Assembly (NCBI GenBank): GCA_033391075.1
Contig: JAWPMV010000001.1
Coordinates: forward strand, 2,604,001-2,668,000
Source: Bacteroidia bacterium
GTDB taxonomy: Bacteria > Bacteroidota > Bacteroidia > J057
Direction of reading: 5' to 3'
Length of the DNA: 64,000 nucleotides
The notes under the pieces: generated by a model
Told to the model about the DNA's origin: nothing
The model's database searches: none
What the model saw: only the letters and a program-made list of their open reading frames with translations
Translations under genes and position numbers: made by a program
In this document: in pieces, positions 49,047 through 60,395 of the stretch
Layout of the letters: every line of letters begins with the position of its first letter
How positions within the stretch are numbered: position 1 is the first letter of the stretch

Positions 49047-50363
49047 CTAGTTGGAGCGCAGACCTAAAGAATCGGCTTCGCTTTTAAACATGCGCAATTC
49101 TACTCTGCGGTTTTGTTTTCTACCTTCTGCAGATTGATTGTTGCTGATCGGAGAAGCATCTCCGTAACCGTCAGAAGATATTCTGGCCATTCTGATACCT
49201 TTTTGATATACAAGGTAGTATTTAACCTTAAAGGCTCTTTTTACAGAAAGTACCTTATTGTCTTTTGTCTTTCCGGTATTGTCAGTGAAGCCATGGACCT
49301 CAAGGCTATGGTTGGGATACTTAGCCATCAGATCTGCTATCTGATCCAGAACCGGATAACTGTCATAGGTAAGCTCATCGCTTGCCGGCTCAAAAAGGAT
49401 GTTTTTCATAGCCGTATTCAGAATGCTCTGATCGGCACTTGAAATTCCCTGACCTTCAGTAAAGGTGTTTTCCTTGTAGGTATCCTGTTCTGTATAAATC
49501 TCAGCCGGAGTCTCCTCATAATTTTCGATTTGAGCTGGTTGAGGCTTATTGTCCTCTACGATGCTTAGACCTCCAGATTCTTGCGTACTTTCCAATTCAG
49601 GGTCTTGTGTAACTGCAATATCTGAGGGCTTTTCCTCTTTGGCATTTTCATCCTCTGGACAACCCAGGAACATAGCTCTTCCGGGCTCATTGGGACAAAG
49701 ATCATCTCTATCAAGTACACCATCATTGTCGGCATCAGCATTGGAAGCGATTGGCATCTCTTCTTTTTTGCTTGGCTTTTGCGGTTTTGGTGGAACTTTT
49801 TTAGGATTAGCGGGAAGTGCAAATACAAATCCAGCGGAGTAGGTGAGGGGTTGGAAATTTCCTTGCCCGATCCCATACTTATACATGCCTTCAAAATTGA
49901 GGGCAAAATTCTTGCTCATTCTCAACCTGATCCCAAAAGCTCCGGGAACATAAAGACGGAGATTATTGCTAGCCGTATTCAAACCAAAACCCAGAGAGAG
50001 ATAAGGTGCAAAGAAAGCTTCCTCCTGAAAAATCGTTCCATTGGATTTAAGTTGTAATAAGGCGTTTACATCTATGAGGGAAGTACCTATCGTTTCCGTT
50101 TGAGTTACCGGGTAGGTAGTCTGAGGAACGAAGGTAGTATTTAAACCAAAATTGAGTGCTTCACTTAAAAAAGCATTTGCACCTATAGTAATACCAGGGT
50201 TAAAGGAATTAAAATCGGTATAATTACCGGTTAAGGGTCCTTGGTAATCAAGAAAACTTGCTGACAAGCCCGTGGTAACAGGAGTCTGACTGGTTTGCGC
50301 ATGTACCTGGAAACTACTAAGAAGTAGAAAAACAAGGATAACAATCGAAAAACGGAGATTCAT
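49047..50363 (-). CDS. OmpA-family outer membrane protein (beta-barrel plus OmpA domain)
   Basis: 438 residues. Signal peptide about 1-22 (VHAQ end). Residues about 30-180 are alternating strands ending FAPYLSLGFGLNTASNN and FALNFEGMYKYGIGQG, typical of an eight-strand barrel. A short calcium-type motif ADADNDGVLDRDDLCPNEPG (about 205-225) links to an acidic spacer, then the OmpA domain (about 330-438): LEVHGFTDNTGKTKDNKVLS, VKRAFKVKYYLVYQKGIR, GRKQNRRVELRM. The OmpA domain ties the outer membrane to peptidoglycan. It shares the layout of the next gene (50512-51870). Confidence 0.9.
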   Translation of the reverse strand: MNLRFSIVILVFLLLSSFQVHAQTSQTPVTTGLSASFLDYQGPLTGNYTDFNSFNPGITIGANAFLSEALNFGLNTTFVPQTTYPVTQTETIGTSLIDVNALLQLKSNGTIFQEEAFFAPYLSLGFGLNTASNNLRLYVPGAFGIRLRMSKNFALNFEGMYKYGIGQGNFQPLTYSAGFVFALPANPKKVPPKPQKPSKKEEMPIASNADADNDGVLDRDDLCPNEPGRAMFLGCPEDENAKEEKPSDIAVTQDPELESTQESGGLSIVEDNKPQPAQIENYEETPAEIYTEQDTYKENTFTEGQGISSADQSILNTAMKNILFEPASDELTYDSYPVLDQIADLMAKYPNHSLEVHGFTDNTGKTKDNKVLSVKRAFKVKYYLVYQKGIRMARISSDGYGDASPISNNQSAEGRKQNRRVELRMFKSEADSLGLRSN

Positions 50364-50511: not shown

Positions 50512-51870
50512 TCATCTAATTACTTTAAAGTCCACCCGTCTGTTTCTTTCTCGGCCAGTGTCTGTGTTGTTGCTTGCTTTGGGTTTGCTTTCTCCAAAGC
50601 CCTCTGAGTCAATTCTATTTTGTCTAATGCCATGCTCATAAACGAGGTAGTATTTTACCTTATGGGCACGTAATACCGAAAGCACCTGATTGCTTTTATC
50701 TGCCCCAGTAGCATCTGTATGTCCTTGCAACTGGAGCTTACTGCTTTTACAAGCCTGGAGTAATGCTGCGATCTCATCAAGCTTTTGTTTGGCTCTGGCA
50801 GGCAAATCGGCGCTTGCATGTTCAAAATAAATGGAGAAATCTGTACTGGTTAAACTGAGATTGCAAGGAAGTTTCTCTTCCTCAGCAACTTCAGTATGAG
50901 TATTATTCTTCTGAGGACTGTAAAGAGGTTCAGGAGATGATTCAATCTGCACTTCTCTTTGGGCTAGTTCTTCCTGGGCAGGAGGGATAGCTTTAGCTTT
51001 ACTATGATCCTCTACAAGGACTTCCTCTTTTTCTTGTTGTATAGGGATTTTTTGCTCTTCCGCTTCCTCTTGCTTTACTTCAGGGCTTCCTTGCGGAAGT
51101 TTTTCTGGTTGCGCATCTGTTTCTTCTGCTATATTTTCCTCTTCTTCTTCTTCCGGACAGCCAAATAATCTTTCTATTCCCGGGACTTCCGGGCAGAGAT
51201 CATCTTCATCTGCAATTCCGTCTTCATCTGCATCCTTAGGTTTAGTTTCTTCTATAATCTTCTCCTCATTTATCTCCTGCTTTGGATATTTCTCCTTTGC
51301 TTTACCTACATTATAGTGAACAGATAAAGCATGAGCTGTGTGCTGGTAATCTTTATTGACAGAGAATTTACGGGTGGACTCCAATCTTATGTCCAAACGA
51401 TCCGAAAGACGAAACTTCAATCCACCTCCCAATGGAATGTAAACATCGGGATTCATCTGTACATAACTTCCTCCCAATCCAAATAGGACATAAGGGCCTA
51501 AAAAGGCATCCTCTTTCATAAACACCCCATTATTTACTTTGAAACCCAGAAGGTAACTCATATCCACCAATTGAGTATTGATGGTATTTGAAGGTGTTTC
51601 ATCAAGAGGAGCGGGAAATTCTATATTATTAGCATAGGTGATCTGCGTTCGAAAATCGAAAGCACCCCCTAATCTTTTAGAAAGGCTCAATTGATAAGCG
51701 GACTGAAAAGCTGCAGCTTGCAAGGCTGGTAGGTCAGCAGGAGCTTTGTATTTCAATAAAACAAAGCCACCACCAACAGCCCATGGATGCTGAAGGTTTT
51801 GCCCTTTGGAAATTGGCGAAAGAATACAGAAGAACAAGGATAAAAAGATAGCAAGGCTAGCTTTACGCAT
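50512..51870 (-). CDS. OmpA-family outer membrane protein, paralogue of the neighbouring one
   Basis: 452 residues. Signal peptide (about 1-23, SKGQ end), barrel-like region to about 190, then a calcium-type motif DADEDGIADEDDLCPEVPG (about 213-235), a long Glu/Pro/Gln-rich spacer (about 240-345), and an OmpA domain at the C-terminus: KLQLQGHTDATGADKSNQVL, SVLRAHKVKYYLVYEHGIRQ, GRERNRRVDFKV. The DxDxDG loop and VKYYLVY segment show common ancestry with 49047-50363; the two are separated by 148 bp and may have separate promoters. Confidence 0.9.
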   Translation of the reverse strand: MRKASLAIFLSLFFCILSPISKGQNLQHPWAVGGGFVLLKYKAPADLPALQAAAFQSAYQLSLSKRLGGAFDFRTQITYANNIEFPAPLDETPSNTINTQLVDMSYLLGFKVNNGVFMKEDAFLGPYVLFGLGGSYVQMNPDVYIPLGGGLKFRLSDRLDIRLESTRKFSVNKDYQHTAHALSVHYNVGKAKEKYPKQEINEEKIIEETKPKDADEDGIADEDDLCPEVPGIERLFGCPEEEEEENIAEETDAQPEKLPQGSPEVKQEEAEEQKIPIQQEKEEVLVEDHSKAKAIPPAQEELAQREVQIESSPEPLYSPQKNNTHTEVAEEEKLPCNLSLTSTDFSIYFEHASADLPARAKQKLDEIAALLQACKSSKLQLQGHTDATGADKSNQVLSVLRAHKVKYYLVYEHGIRQNRIDSEGFGESKPKASNNTDTGRERNRRVDFKVIR

Positions 51871-56217: not shown

Positions 56218-56841
56218 TCAGGCTCTGCCCAATTTCAATTTGAAGGGGATGGGTTCATATTCCCGTTCCATATTAGAGGCCAAGACCAAAATGCGATCTC
56301 CCAGGTATTTATCTATCAGATCGAGGATTTTTCGTGCGTTATCCTTATCCATATTACTGGTTGGTTCATCCAGCATAAGGACTTTTGATTGGGTAAAGAT
56401 GGCCATGCCTACTTTAGCCCGCTGAAGCATACCTGAAGAATAATAATTCAGAAGTTTATCCTTATCATCCCAAAGATCAAGTACTTTGATCATTTCCTCA
56501 ATAGAAGAGAGTAGGGGAGTTTTAAATTTGAAGTGAAGCCGGAACTGTTCCTCTAGGCTTAACTCAGGAAATACCTCAATATAAGGCCCCATCCAGCTGA
56601 TATACTGGTAGGCCTGATCAAGGGGAATTTTCTTCCCATCAATAAAATATTGGACTTTTCCTGTGCTGGGACTGCTTTGTGCAGCAATGATCCTCAAGAG
56701 AGTAGATTTGCCGGAACCATTGGTTCCGACTAATGCTATCTTTTTATGTTCTCCCAATGAGAGATCAAGGTCTTTGAATAACCAGTTTCGATTAAACTTC
56801 TTACCAACTCCCTTTAAGGCTATGTCAAAAGCGCCTGGCAT
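56218..56841 (-). CDS. Orphan ABC-type ATPase with unusual signature motif
   Basis: About 207 residues, a single nucleotide-binding domain. Walker A is [15 protein letters not shown], Walker B is KVLMLDEPTSNMDKD, and a Q-loop lies near YQYISWMGPYIEV. The signature is YYSSGMLQRAKV, so SSGML replaces the usual LSGGQ, although the preceding and following residues keep the helix. No permease or substrate-binding gene lies beside it. Start is the ATG at 56841, which begins one base after the lpxA stop; the upstream in-frame ATG at 56919 would overlap lpxA extensively. Co-transcription with the lpx genes suggests an envelope-related role (inference). Confidence 0.82.
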   Translation of the reverse strand: MPGAFDIALKGVGKKFNRNWLFKDLDLSLGEHKKIALVGTNGSGKSTLLRIIAAQSSPSTGKVQYFIDGKKIPLDQAYQYISWMGPYIEVFPELSLEEQFRLHFKFKTPLLSSIEEMIKVLDLWDDKDKLLNYYSSGMLQRAKVGMAIFTQSKVLMLDEPTSNMDKDNARKILDLIDKYLGDRILVLASNMEREYEPIPFKLKLGRA

Positions 56842-56842
56842 C

Positions 56843-57904
56843 TCATTCTTCCTTTGTCCCACTTTCTTCTGAACTACCAGAGCTTGAAGTATAGCCTCTG
56901 ATGATACCCCTGGAGGCATTTCTTACAAAGGTAATGACTTCATCTCTTTCTTCAGTAGGTGGAAGATGAGCTTCTATATAATCGAGTGCTTTAGAATTAT
57001 TCATACCAGAAAGGAATAGTTTTCGGTAGATATTCTGAATCTCGTGGATCGTTGCATTGTCAAAGCCACGTCTTCTCAGTCCGATAGAGTTGACACCTTC
57101 ATATTGCACAGGATATCTTCTTCCTGCCTTTACAAATGGTGGAACATCTTTACCGACCAGAGAACCTCCGGAAAGGATTACATGTCTTCCGATCTTTACA
57201 AACTGGTGAACGGCTGACATACCACCAATAATGGCAAAATCACCGACTACTACATGGCCGGCCATATTTACTGCATTGGCGAGAATCACATTATTTCCCA
57301 GCACACAATCATGTGCCACATGAGAATATGCCATAATCAGGCAGTTTTTGCCTACGATGGTTTTTCCCAGATAATCCGTTCCTCTATTGAGGGTAGCGCA
57401 CTCGCGGATGGTTGTATTTTCTCCAATTTCCAGGGTAGTTTTTTCCCCGTGAAATTTTAGGTCCTGAGGAATCCCGGAAAGAACAGCCCCGGGAAAAATT
57501 TTGCAATTTTTTCCGATTCTTGCTCCATCAAAAATGGTCACATTCGAACCGATCCAGCATCCTTCCTGAATACTGACGCCCCCTCTGATCGTAACAGAAG
57601 GTTCGATATGCACATTGTCGTGAATGCTGATTTTTGGATTCAGGCTGGTAGATGCCTGTTCTTTGTTCCAGAATTCCAGGTCGCGGATTTCTGGCGAAAT
57701 AACTGTCCCAGAGGAAATATTTACATTTTTTCCAATACTTACACCGGGATGAATTACAACATTGCTACCTATTTTGGACCCCTCACCGATCTCAACATCT
57801 TCATGGATAATACTAAATGGACCAAATTGAACGCTTTCATGGATTTTTGCCTTTGGGCTGAGGAATACTTGGGCGGTGTCTTGGTCAGGATGCTTTATAG
57901 TCAT
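56843..57904 (-). CDS. lpxA: UDP-N-acetylglucosamine acyltransferase LpxA with an extra N-terminal beta-helix repeat
   Basis: 353 residues, versus about 260 usual for LpxA, the first enzyme of lipid A synthesis. The core (from about 92) is LpxA-like: GIPQDLKF (144-151), the catalytic-site His in SHVAHDC (His195/His198), DFAIIGGMSAVHQF, and the C-terminal helical domain RRGFDNATIHEIQNIYR. The extra N-terminus (about 14-100) repeats the same left-handed beta-helix and loop: HESVQFGPFSIIHEDVEIG with EIRDLEFWNKEQ echoing the IPQDLKF loop. The C-terminus ends in a Ser/Gly/Glu tail. Its ATGA overlaps the lpxC-fabZ stop. Identity as LpxA is firm. Confidence 0.9.
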   Translation of the reverse strand: MTIKHPDQDTAQVFLSPKAKIHESVQFGPFSIIHEDVEIGEGSKIGSNVVIHPGVSIGKNVNISSGTVISPEIRDLEFWNKEQASTSLNPKISIHDNVHIEPSVTIRGGVSIQEGCWIGSNVTIFDGARIGKNCKIFPGAVLSGIPQDLKFHGEKTTLEIGENTTIRECATLNRGTDYLGKTIVGKNCLIMAYSHVAHDCVLGNNVILANAVNMAGHVVVGDFAIIGGMSAVHQFVKIGRHVILSGGSLVGKDVPPFVKAGRRYPVQYEGVNSIGLRRRGFDNATIHEIQNIYRKLFLSGMNNSKALDYIEAHLPPTEERDEVITFVRNASRGIIRGYTSSSGSSEESGTKEE

Positions 57905-59301
57905 AGTTTGTCTTTTGGTACAACGCTCGCAACTAAATCTGCGGAGGAGACGAGCTGCCCATCTACATAGGCTTTTCCACTCATTTTACATATACTCCTA
58001 CGAAGTGCCGTCATTTCCAATTCTAAAATTAGGGTATCACCTGGAATAACTGGTTTTTTGAAACGAACGTTGTCAATTGCTACAAAATAAACCCAAATTG
58101 ATTTGGGATTGTCTATCGTGTTGAGCAGTAGTATCCCTCCTAATTGTCCCATCGCCTCAACTTGTAGTACGCCTGGCATGATCGGGTTTCCGGGGAAGTG
58201 ACCTTGGAAAAAAGGTTCATTGAATGTTACATTCTTAACTCCCCTGATCGTACTTTCTGTAAAATCTGTAACCTTATCTACCAGCAGGAAGGGATATCTA
58301 TGAGGTAGTATTTCATGAATCGCATTGATGTCAAAAATCACCCCGGGTTTCCCTCCTTTTCCTTTAGAGAACTTATTAGCTATACGTTGTTGTTTAATTT
58401 TAGATTTAATTTTTTTCGCTAATTCTACATTTGATTTGTGTCCGGGCCGAGAAGCGATGATTTTTCCCTTCAAAGGCATGCCTACAAGCGCCAGATCCCC
58501 CAATAGATCCAATAACTTGTGTCGGGCAGGTTCATTTGGAAATCTAAACCCATTTTTATTTAAAATCCCAGCCTTTATTTCTACATCACTTACCCCAAAA
58601 ATATTTTGTAACTTTCTTATTTCTTCTTCCTCCTCGTCTTTGTCCATTATTACAACTGCACTATCCAAACTCCCTCCCTTTATTAAACCTGCCTGATGTA
58701 AGGCTTCCAGTTCGTGGACAAAACAGAAAGTTCGGGCACTTGAGAACTCCTCTTTAAACTGAGAAATGGACTTCATGTTTGCATGCTGAGCTTCGATCGC
58801 CTTGGATCCAAAATCGATGAAAGTATTCAGCTCGAAAGACCTGGCAGGAAAAGCTGCCAACGTTATATCATTCGCCTCATCGCTGTAGGTAATAGATTCA
58901 TCAATCTCAAAATAGATACGTTCAGCATCTTGTTCATCCAATCCTGTTTCCAGCAATTTCTCAATAAACTCCCGAGAGCTTCCATCCATAATAGGAGGTT
59001 CTGGTCCATCCAGGTCGATCAGGGCATTGTCTATCCCCAATCCCATAAGAGCAGCCATTACATGCTCTACGGTATGAACTTTCGCTCCATTTTCCTTTAG
59101 GGTAGTCCCTCTTGAAGTATCCACAACTAAATCGACATCAGCATGGACCAAAGGTTGCCCCTCGATGTCTGTTCTTCGGAAAATTATTCCATGATCAGGC
59201 TCAGCCGGATGAAAAGTCATCGTTACTGGCACTCCCGTATGAAGGCCCTTACCACTTATCGATGTCGCAGATTTAATTGTGTGTTGTTTTTCCATCTCCA
59301 T
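57901..59301 (-). CDS. Bifunctional LpxC-FabZ (UDP-3-O-acyl-GlcNAc deacetylase / 3-hydroxyacyl-ACP dehydratase)
   Basis: 466 residues, a fusion typical of Bacteroidota. LpxC part (about 1-300): TISGKGLHTGVPV-like start (SISGKGLHTG), HTVEHVMAALMGLG with a zinc His, PARHKLLDLLGDLALVG with further zinc ligands. FabZ part (about 315-466): ILPHRYPFLLVDKVTDF, FFQGHFPGNPIMPGVLQVEA with catalytic His and Glu. LpxC commits to lipid A, FabZ makes enoyl-ACP for fatty acids, so the fusion links the two. It starts 7 bp after lpxD and overlaps lpxA. Confidence 0.96.
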   Translation of the reverse strand: MEMEKQHTIKSATSISGKGLHTGVPVTMTFHPAEPDHGIIFRRTDIEGQPLVHADVDLVVDTSRGTTLKENGAKVHTVEHVMAALMGLGIDNALIDLDGPEPPIMDGSSREFIEKLLETGLDEQDAERIYFEIDESITYSDEANDITLAAFPARSFELNTFIDFGSKAIEAQHANMKSISQFKEEFSSARTFCFVHELEALHQAGLIKGGSLDSAVVIMDKDEEEEEIRKLQNIFGVSDVEIKAGILNKNGFRFPNEPARHKLLDLLGDLALVGMPLKGKIIASRPGHKSNVELAKKIKSKIKQQRIANKFSKGKGGKPGVIFDINAIHEILPHRYPFLLVDKVTDFTESTIRGVKNVTFNEPFFQGHFPGNPIMPGVLQVEAMGQLGGILLLNTIDNPKSIWVYFVAIDNVRFKKPVIPGDTLILELEMTALRRSICKMSGKAYVDGQLVSSADLVASVVPKDKL

Positions 59302-59308
59302 TTCGATC

Positions 59309-60343
59309 TCAAGATCTGTTCTTTAATTCGTTTTCAAGTGCTTCTATCCTTTCGTCCATGCTTTTCAGTTTTCTGAAAAACAATTCGGATCTCAATTGAT
59401 CTCTAAAGGGTTGAATAGGTGATCCCCTGAACGCCTGGCCTTCTTCTTTAATGGATCGGTTTACCCCTGACTGAGCATCGATCTTTGTTCGATCGGCTAT
59501 ATTCAGGTGTCCTACGATCCCTACCTGTCCTCCAATCAAGATGTTAGCACCCAATTTAGTGCTTCCTGATATTCCTGATTGAGCAGCTATTGCCGTATGA
59601 TTTCCCACTTCTACATTGTGGGCGATCTGTACCAGGTTGTCAAGCTTGGCACCTTTGGTAATCCGCGTACTTCCAGTTGTCGCTCTATCTATACAGGTAT
59701 TAGAACCTATTTCAACTCCATCCTCAAGGATTACGTTGCCTATATGATGAATTTTTTTAAAGCTTCCGTCCGCTTGTGGAGCAAATCCGAAGCCATCACT
59801 TCCTATACGACAGCCTGCATGCAGGATACATCCCTTGCCAATTTTTGACTGAGGGTATATAACTACCTGCGGATACAATAGGGTATTGTCATCAATTTCT
59901 GAATAGTCTCCTACATAGCAGCCCGGAAAAATCTTCACATTATTCCCGATTTTTACCTCAGCACCTATGTAGGAAAAAGCTCCAATATAGGCTCCTTCAC
60001 CAATTTCGGCAGAGGAATCGATAAAACTCGGTTCTTCTATCCCGTTTTTTTGAGCTAGTAAGACCTTTTGTGCTTCTTCAAGAAGCTTACTGAAGGCAGA
60101 ATATGGATCGTCAACTTTTAGCAGGGTAGGGGTGTAGTCTCCTTCTGCTTCGAAATCTCTAGCTACAAGGAGAGCAGAGGCCTGAGTACTGTTGAGGTAC
60201 TTTTTATACTTCATATTGGCCAAAAAGCTAATGCTCCCCGGACCAGCTTCTTCAATCTTGGATAGGGTGCTTATTTCCTTGTCAGGATTCCCTATTACTT
60301 CCGCTTGAAGTAAGGCTGCTATCGTGCTAAGAGAAACGTTCAT
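59309..60343 (-). CDS. lpxD: UDP-3-O-acylglucosamine N-acyltransferase LpxD
   Basis: About 344 residues. N-terminal uridine-binding domain (about 1-100; KEISTLSKIEEAGPGSISFL, ANMKYKKYL), a left-handed beta-helix of hexapeptide repeats (about 105-290) containing the catalytic His in LVQIAHNVEVGNHTAI, and a C-terminal helix (RKLKSMDERIEALE). It adds the second acyl chain in lipid A synthesis. Start is the ATG at 60343 (MNVSLSTIAALL); a TTG at 60394 is unnecessary. It follows the dihydroorotase-like gene by 52 bp. Confidence 0.94.
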   Translation of the reverse strand: MNVSLSTIAALLQAEVIGNPDKEISTLSKIEEAGPGSISFLANMKYKKYLNSTQASALLVARDFEAEGDYTPTLLKVDDPYSAFSKLLEEAQKVLLAQKNGIEEPSFIDSSAEIGEGAYIGAFSYIGAEVKIGNNVKIFPGCYVGDYSEIDDNTLLYPQVVIYPQSKIGKGCILHAGCRIGSDGFGFAPQADGSFKKIHHIGNVILEDGVEIGSNTCIDRATTGSTRITKGAKLDNLVQIAHNVEVGNHTAIAAQSGISGSTKLGANILIGGQVGIVGHLNIADRTKIDAQSGVNRSIKEEGQAFRGSPIQPFRDQLRSELFFRKLKSMDERIEALENELKNRS

Positions 60344-60395
60344 TTCTGCTTTATTTTTTTCAGGCGGCCAAGTTACATATTCTTTATTTGCCAAA

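Follow-up and report, generated by a model that had tools for sequence, protein, structure and literature searches.

In the available parts of the published accounts, LpxA is described as needed for the growth of Gram-negative bacteria and as an antibiotic target (PMC6408518). In the Escherichia coli enzyme, as set out in the available part of PMC6286764, the repeat-4 loop contacts both the adjacent subunit and GlcNAc. K76 contacts the sugar ring oxygen, the nitrogen of L75 the acetyl group, and Q73 the acyl-chain hydroxyl. The acyl chain heads toward the C-terminal domain (PMC6286764), and its length is set by G173, or by M169 in Pseudomonas (PMC6286764 and PMC6408518, available parts). The usual LpxA architecture, which does not itself serve as a formal criterion, is a single N-terminal unit in a protein of about 260 residues. 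The LpxA described here has 353 residues and departs from that architecture. A search of the open-access literature by title and abstract found no paper on an internally duplicated LpxA. We class it as a new form of a known enzyme, whole-gene duplications of lpxA being already in print.

The lpxA gene and its internal duplication

The window analyzed is a stretch of 64,000 nucleotides from a Bacteroidia bacterium (contig JAWPMV010000001.1, positions 2,604,001 to 2,668,000). The features discussed below are as follows.

56843..57904, minus strand: lpxA with the duplicated N-terminal segment (353 aa; matches NF003657 and TIGR01852)
57901..59301, minus strand: lpxC/fabZ fusion, the upstream neighbor (NF009667, 668.7 bits; its stop overlaps the lpxA start)
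59309..60394, minus strand: lpxD, a 361-aa open reading frame (NF002060, 407.2 bits, model over residues 18-358)
57668..57868, minus strand: copy 1 of the LpxA N-terminus, residues 13-79 (offset-73 self-alignment; an LpxA N-terminus is the top PDB match)
57632..57688, minus strand: copy-1 loop and connector, residues 73-91, 19 residues (LEFW motif; Glu77 at the K76 position)
57449..57649, minus strand: copy 2, the canonical LpxA N-terminus, residues 86-152 (best stretches of PDB LpxAs start at 86-130)
57434..57469, minus strand: copy-2 loop, residues 146-157, with Q147, D148, L149 and K150 (equivalents of E. coli Q73, D74 and K76)
57119..57448, minus strand: catalytic coils, residues 153-262 (H195, H198 as general base, D199, G216, H217, H233, Q234 and G246)
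56891..57118, minus strand: C-terminal helical domain, residues 263-338 (PF13720)

The lpxA frame runs on the minus strand from an ATG at 57904 to a stop ending at 56843. It encodes the 353 residues, rather than about 260, that an earlier note on this DNA had reported. The protein scored 361.6 bits against NF003657 (cut-off 226) and 338.6 bits against TIGR01852 (cut-off 231.05), and both models were matched at E<=1e-30 by 13/13 family members. PF13720, the LpxA C-terminal domain, gave 83.5 bits over residues 253-335 (gathering score 24.5). The score against the LpxD model TIGR01853 was only 126 bits, below its cut-off of 242.5. The window lpxA is the sole match at E<=1e-30 in its genome and is the only evident LpxA there, the UDP-GlcNAc acyltransferase of step 1 of lipid A synthesis. 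The start that gives 353 aa is well supported, because the ATG and the lpxC/fabZ stop share bases (ATGA) and codons 2-97 hold no in-frame ATG, GTG or TTG. For the window gene this rules out an internal start giving a canonical-size protein; several relatives do have such a codon within that stretch. Among the 13 members, the start overlaps the fabZ stop as ATGA in 8, follows it by 2-6 bases in 3 and follows it by 62-67 bases in 2.

The lpxC/fabZ gene lies upstream of lpxA in 12/12 family relatives' loci, as in canonical loci, while an ABC ATPase gene follows lpxA in 8/12 of them versus 14/14 canonical loci tested. The ATPase gene was not found after lpxA in L013, L019 and L020 (about 1.5 kb downstream searched) or in L024 (about 0.2 kb), and gene order downstream of lpxA is changed in L013, L019 and L020, unlike in other relatives. 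In the window, the ATPase frame (56218-56919), taken from its first ATG, shares 77 nt with the 3' end of lpxA. Its start is likely Met27, near 56841, since 20/23 loci align only from residue 22-38; L011, L015 and L067 align from residue 1-2. Both lpxB and lpxK were found elsewhere in the genome. Two adjacent minus-strand frames of the window (49047-50363 and 50512-51870) look by eye like similar OmpA-type proteins; each seems to carry a short acidic repeat ahead of its C-terminal domain.

When the LpxA protein was compared with itself, residues 7-78 aligned with residues 80-151 without gaps at an offset of 73, loop included, with a BLOSUM62 score of 132; the next best self-diagonal scored 60. 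The loop at residues 71-82 (PEIRDLEFWNKE) parallels that at residues 144-155 (GIPQDLKFHGEK). As read from the sequence, copy 1 consists of nine hexapeptides (19-72), equal to three coils, and the start of a loop, and copy 2 of nine hexapeptides (92-145) and a 12-residue loop (146-157). The duplicated unit is 54 + 19 = 73 residues. The left-handed helix rises about 4.8 Å per coil, so the three extra coils would add some 14 Å to the prism.

The repetition of such a helix gives a high background of self-similarity, yet it does not account for a score of 132. In 78 canonical LpxAs the best ungapped self-diagonal at any offset from 15 had a mean of 60 and a maximum of 98, and 0/1000 hexapeptide-block shuffles of residues 13-72, searched only at offsets from 60, reached 132 (mean, 72.6; maximum, 126). 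The best self-diagonal falls at an offset of 68-77 in 12/13 family members and exceeds the canonical maximum in 9/13, with L014 equal to it at 98. L020 (91), L019 (84) and L024 (61, at offset 18) fall below it, and their case therefore rests on alignment to the family.

For the 17 PDB LpxA chain sequences, the best stretch starts at window residue 86-130, with about 80 extra residues before it; 4e6u and 4e6t, two of the five alignments listed, have a second piece matching residues 12-51 and 12-60. The first 86 residues of the window protein alone matched 1j2z best (41.4 bits), which we take to be the Helicobacter pylori LpxA, and Bacteroides fragilis LpxA (4r36) scored 40.4 bits. Both matches stay in register through the loop. 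An N-acetyltransferase gave the same 40.4 bits over a 35-residue stretch, and LpxDs gave 36-37 bits. A profile of the 13 extensions placed 4r36 at the top, aligning positions 9-79 with 22-92 without a gap; among the best 60 of 86 matches, 4r36 scored 79.4, Pseudomonas LpxA 77.0 and LpxD 76.3 bits. The LpxD matches among those listed are 46-62 residues long and stop short of the loop.

Together with a profile of canonical N-termini (below), these comparisons confirmed at the sequence level the earlier note's proposal that the extension is a second, tandem copy of the LpxA N-terminus, loop included; that note had named a dot-plot among its checks, and internal similarity is present. The source of copy 1 may be the same lpxA gene or another LpxA. 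Identity between the copies is 34.2% within a protein versus 34.9% between proteins, which gives no sign of recent duplication or gene conversion. An assembly artifact is ruled out by copies about 34% identical and by the presence of the extended form in 13 genomes.

Distribution and origin

The extended LpxA occurs in 13/13 genomes of the family, spanning 10 genera, with one LpxA each at E<=1e-30. Outside the family, extension was judged by where the match to the query starts, a criterion blind to an unrelated extension, and by this measure none was found in the order (0/8), the class (0/145 itemized) or the phylum (0/89). In the order, 21/22 genomes have an LpxA match (G013 has none), and in the 8 that do not belong to the family the match begins no earlier than query residue 80. 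In relatives beyond the family, none of the 44 matches begins before residue 77. In the class, 263/295 genomes match; 150 rows were itemized, 5 of them family members, and none of the other 145 starts before residue 57; the row that starts there runs through a stop codon. In the phylum, 90/118 genomes match, and the 89 outside the family (28 from the class, 61 from other classes; the samples overlap) start at residue 71 or later.

Long LpxAs are likewise not common. Outside the family, only 13 itemized genomes have a stop-to-stop frame above 300 aa, and the one looked at, G055, is 268 aa from its ATG. A scan of genome contigs listed 80 loci, 79 with an ATG giving 257-267 aa and one, L067, of 345 aa. 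L067, the sole extended relative among the contig-scan matches listed, lies on the same contig as G002 and adds no further genome. The extended protein is about a third longer than its relatives. LpxA outside the Bacteroidota was covered as PDB chains and plasmid matches. Among the plasmids, 61 records matched, and of the 5 listed only H1 covers more than 80% of the query; its two pieces lie over one 726-base stretch, apparently a single canonical LpxA to which both copies align.

In a tree of 60 LpxAs, built from the columns after the duplication only, the 13 extended proteins fall on one side of a branch with an SH-aLRT of 98 (by the quick method). A single origin in the stem of one Bacteroidota family is supported by this branch together with the 13/13 occurrence in the family and the lack of extended matches elsewhere by match start. 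The lineage specificity that the earlier note had suspected thus holds within the searched set, and the extension offers a simple sequence marker for the family.

Some genomes carry more than one lpxA-like sequence. G368, from another class of the phylum, has two lpxA-like genes in tandem (C73:85046-85834 and 85902-86645), a layout that could give rise to an N-terminal fusion or a partial duplication. Two LpxA-like matches each were seen in G092, G156, G186, G214 (family f39), G076, G119 and G125.

Catalytic residues and possible roles of the added coils

Equivalents of E. coli Q73, D74, K76, H122, H125, D126, G143, H144, H160, Q161 and G173 are all present in the window protein. The catalytic His-Asp pair is found as H198 and D199, the oxyanion glycine as G216 and the loop residues as Q147 and K150; the histidine is at the position, offset by 73 residues, that the earlier note had given. 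These residues lie in copy 2 and in the protein body, and the working part looks intact. In the window protein, copy 2 keeps the equivalents of Q73, L75 and K76. L015 and L016 have Gln in place of the H160 equivalent (window H233); this variation belongs to the body and not to the extension.

An effect of the longer helix on the acyl ruler, which the earlier note had also raised, is not supported by these comparisons. The equivalent of G173, Gly246, is conserved in 13/13 family members, and the acyl chain is directed away from the duplication (PMC6286764, available part). E. coli H191, the channel cap and second ruler residue, aligns with Tyr264. Because the canonical Bacteroidota compared also lack His at this position, Tyr264 is no effect of the extension. 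The earlier interpretation is supported for the duplication and, within the searched set, for its lineage specificity, but not for the acyl ruler.

At the K76 position of the copy-1 loop the 13 members have Glu (10), Ala (L020), Asp (L024) or a gap (L019), and Lys in 0/13, and at the D74 position only the window protein has Asp. The position of K76's partner Leu is Leu in 12/13, the next-but-one position is aromatic in 12/13, and the residue after the aromatic is Trp in 10/13 (Cys in L012, Arg in L024 and a gap in L019). L019 is without most of this motif, which is hence not universal. With the hydrophobic L-x-F/Y-W mostly retained and the polar substrate residues gone, the loop suggests that packing was kept and substrate contact lost.

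The two copies have also diverged from canonical LpxA in different halves. Against 17 canonical rows, identity in the first half of the unit is 44% for copy 1 and 36% for copy 2, and in the second half 48% and 75%, i.e., each copy seems to have retained the part whose surroundings it retained, copy 1 the cap and copy 2 the part beside the active site. Within the family, identity is 25% in the N-tail, 48% in copy 1, 17% in the linker, 66% in copy 2, 70% in the catalytic coils and 55% in the C-terminal domain. Copy 1, whose identity exceeds that of the N-tail and linker, is thus under constraint. Its conserved positions are mostly scaffold, that is, buried hexapeptide positions, which fits a structural role yet gives no positive sign of a specific function.

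We consider it fairly likely that an old, single, partial tandem duplication lengthened the prism by three coils and that the second, non-catalytic loop probably clasps the neighboring subunit. In the stem of the family, the first 73 or so residues of lpxA, comprising three coils and the subunit-touching loop, would have been duplicated in tandem once and kept. The downstream copy would have stayed beside the catalytic coils, retaining the substrate-contacting loop, while the upstream copy retained the N-terminal cap and scaffold residues and its loop lost the sugar-contacting lysine. In its catalysis the enzyme would then be an ordinary trimer; its prism would extend three coils further at the end remote from the acyl channel, and three additional loops would form a second tier against the neighboring subunits. 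Any gain would be structural, in stability or packing, with no new activity. The duplication, its presence in all family members examined, the intact catalytic set and the lost loop lysine were each demonstrated by comparison of sequences; the most economical reading would be a trimer of greater height, clasped by loops at a second level as well, and an effect of the extension on the trimer is plausible.

AlphaFold modeling, a check that the earlier note had proposed, contributed little. Model 1, built on an alignment of the window protein and L067 with 39 of the 78 usable canonical rows, was misfolded (TM 0.23-0.34 to solved LpxAs, with other kinds of beta-helix among its matches); L067, the only other extended protein in that alignment, was misaligned. 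Model 2, from the window protein, L067 and 49 of 78 canonical rows, was partly right (pLDDT 76.6; pTM 0.68; TM to 4r36 0.49 by target; rmsd 14.8 Å). The geometry of both is unreliable. Residues 73-89, the copy-1 loop, have a pLDDT below 50 in model 2.

It is possible, though unlikely, that the same duplication was kept as a docking surface for a partner such as acyl carrier protein, LpxC/FabZ, LpxD or a regulator, in which case LpxA would serve as a scaffold or control point. This idea stays alive because other bacteria regulate LpxA through proteins that bind to it, ObgE, LabP and RipA being binders there (PMC12444477, available part), and most of the 13 members keep the copy-1 loop motif (Leu in 12, an aromatic residue in 12 and Trp in 10). 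However, the conserved copy-1 positions are mainly buried hexapeptide positions. A bolder form, in which the second coil and loop tier is a lineage-specific docking or control platform built from a reused subunit-clasping module without substrate contacts, is distinctly unlikely.

We regard as rather improbable a neutral history in which the duplication happened once, was tolerated because a helix of this kind can grow longer, and became locked in when copy 2 lost its cap and came to depend on copy 1 for folding. The divergence of copy 2 from canonical LpxA is greatest in its first coil (32.5% identity over unit columns 3-20, versus 41.0% for copy 1), as expected if it is no longer a cap, and the near-equal identities within and between proteins show no sign of gene conversion. 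Fold lock-in alone, however, leaves unexplained why conservation is higher in the loop motif than in the linker.

Recruitment of the extension from another hexapeptide protein, its likeness to LpxA being a general left-handed-helix resemblance, was rejected as very improbable. Generic hexapeptide families do match residues 35-75, the N-acetyltransferase ties with B. fragilis LpxA on the extension (40.4 bits), and background self-similarity of the helix is high. Nevertheless, a profile of 78 canonical Bacteroidota N-termini gave the extensions 45.6-91.2 bits, versus 20.5-31.9 bits for six other hexapeptide proteins of the genome (best domain in each case); with repeats summed, the two weakest extensions, L020 and L024, score below LpxD (57.7) and hexapeptide protein L002 (48.1). 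Several LpxAs also match in register through the loop, whereas the LpxD and acetyltransferase matches stop before it. A second active or substrate-binding site in copy 1 is extremely improbable and was rejected: although most members retain the loop and 8/13 have a His-Asp pair (125/126) one unit upstream of H198-D199, residue 125 of the window protein is Phe and this protein lacks equivalents of K76, H144 and H160 one unit upstream, so that its copy-1 loop and unit-shifted positions are without the needed residues.

An in-frame duplication of about a quarter of LpxA, found in all family members examined, is a natural experiment in how far a left-handed-helix trimer can lengthen. It also bears on the growth of repeat proteins by several coils at once and on separating a subunit-contacting loop from its substrate role.

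Comparison with known systems

Duplicated lpxA sequence is found in Geobacter sulfurreducens, where the whole gene is duplicated (PMC3087551), and in the tandem pair of G368. In both these are separate genes, with no in-frame internal duplication (for Geobacter, as far as the available part of the report describes). LpxD (TIGR01853) is, like the window protein, a left-handed-helix acyltransferase trimer with added material before the helix; unlike it, the LpxD N-terminal domain is a separate uridine-binding fold, with no extra coils described in the available parts of PMC6286764 and PMC10863985. E. coli LpxA (1lxa) differs in having 262 residues, one N-terminal unit and H191 in place of Tyr264, and its eleven listed functional residues from Q73 to G173 all have equivalents in the window protein. 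B. fragilis LpxA (4r36), of 255 residues in the structure library, has no extra N-terminal copy. Window residues 88-336 align with it over the catalytic and C-terminal part at 240.5 bits, and its N-terminus also aligns with copy 1.
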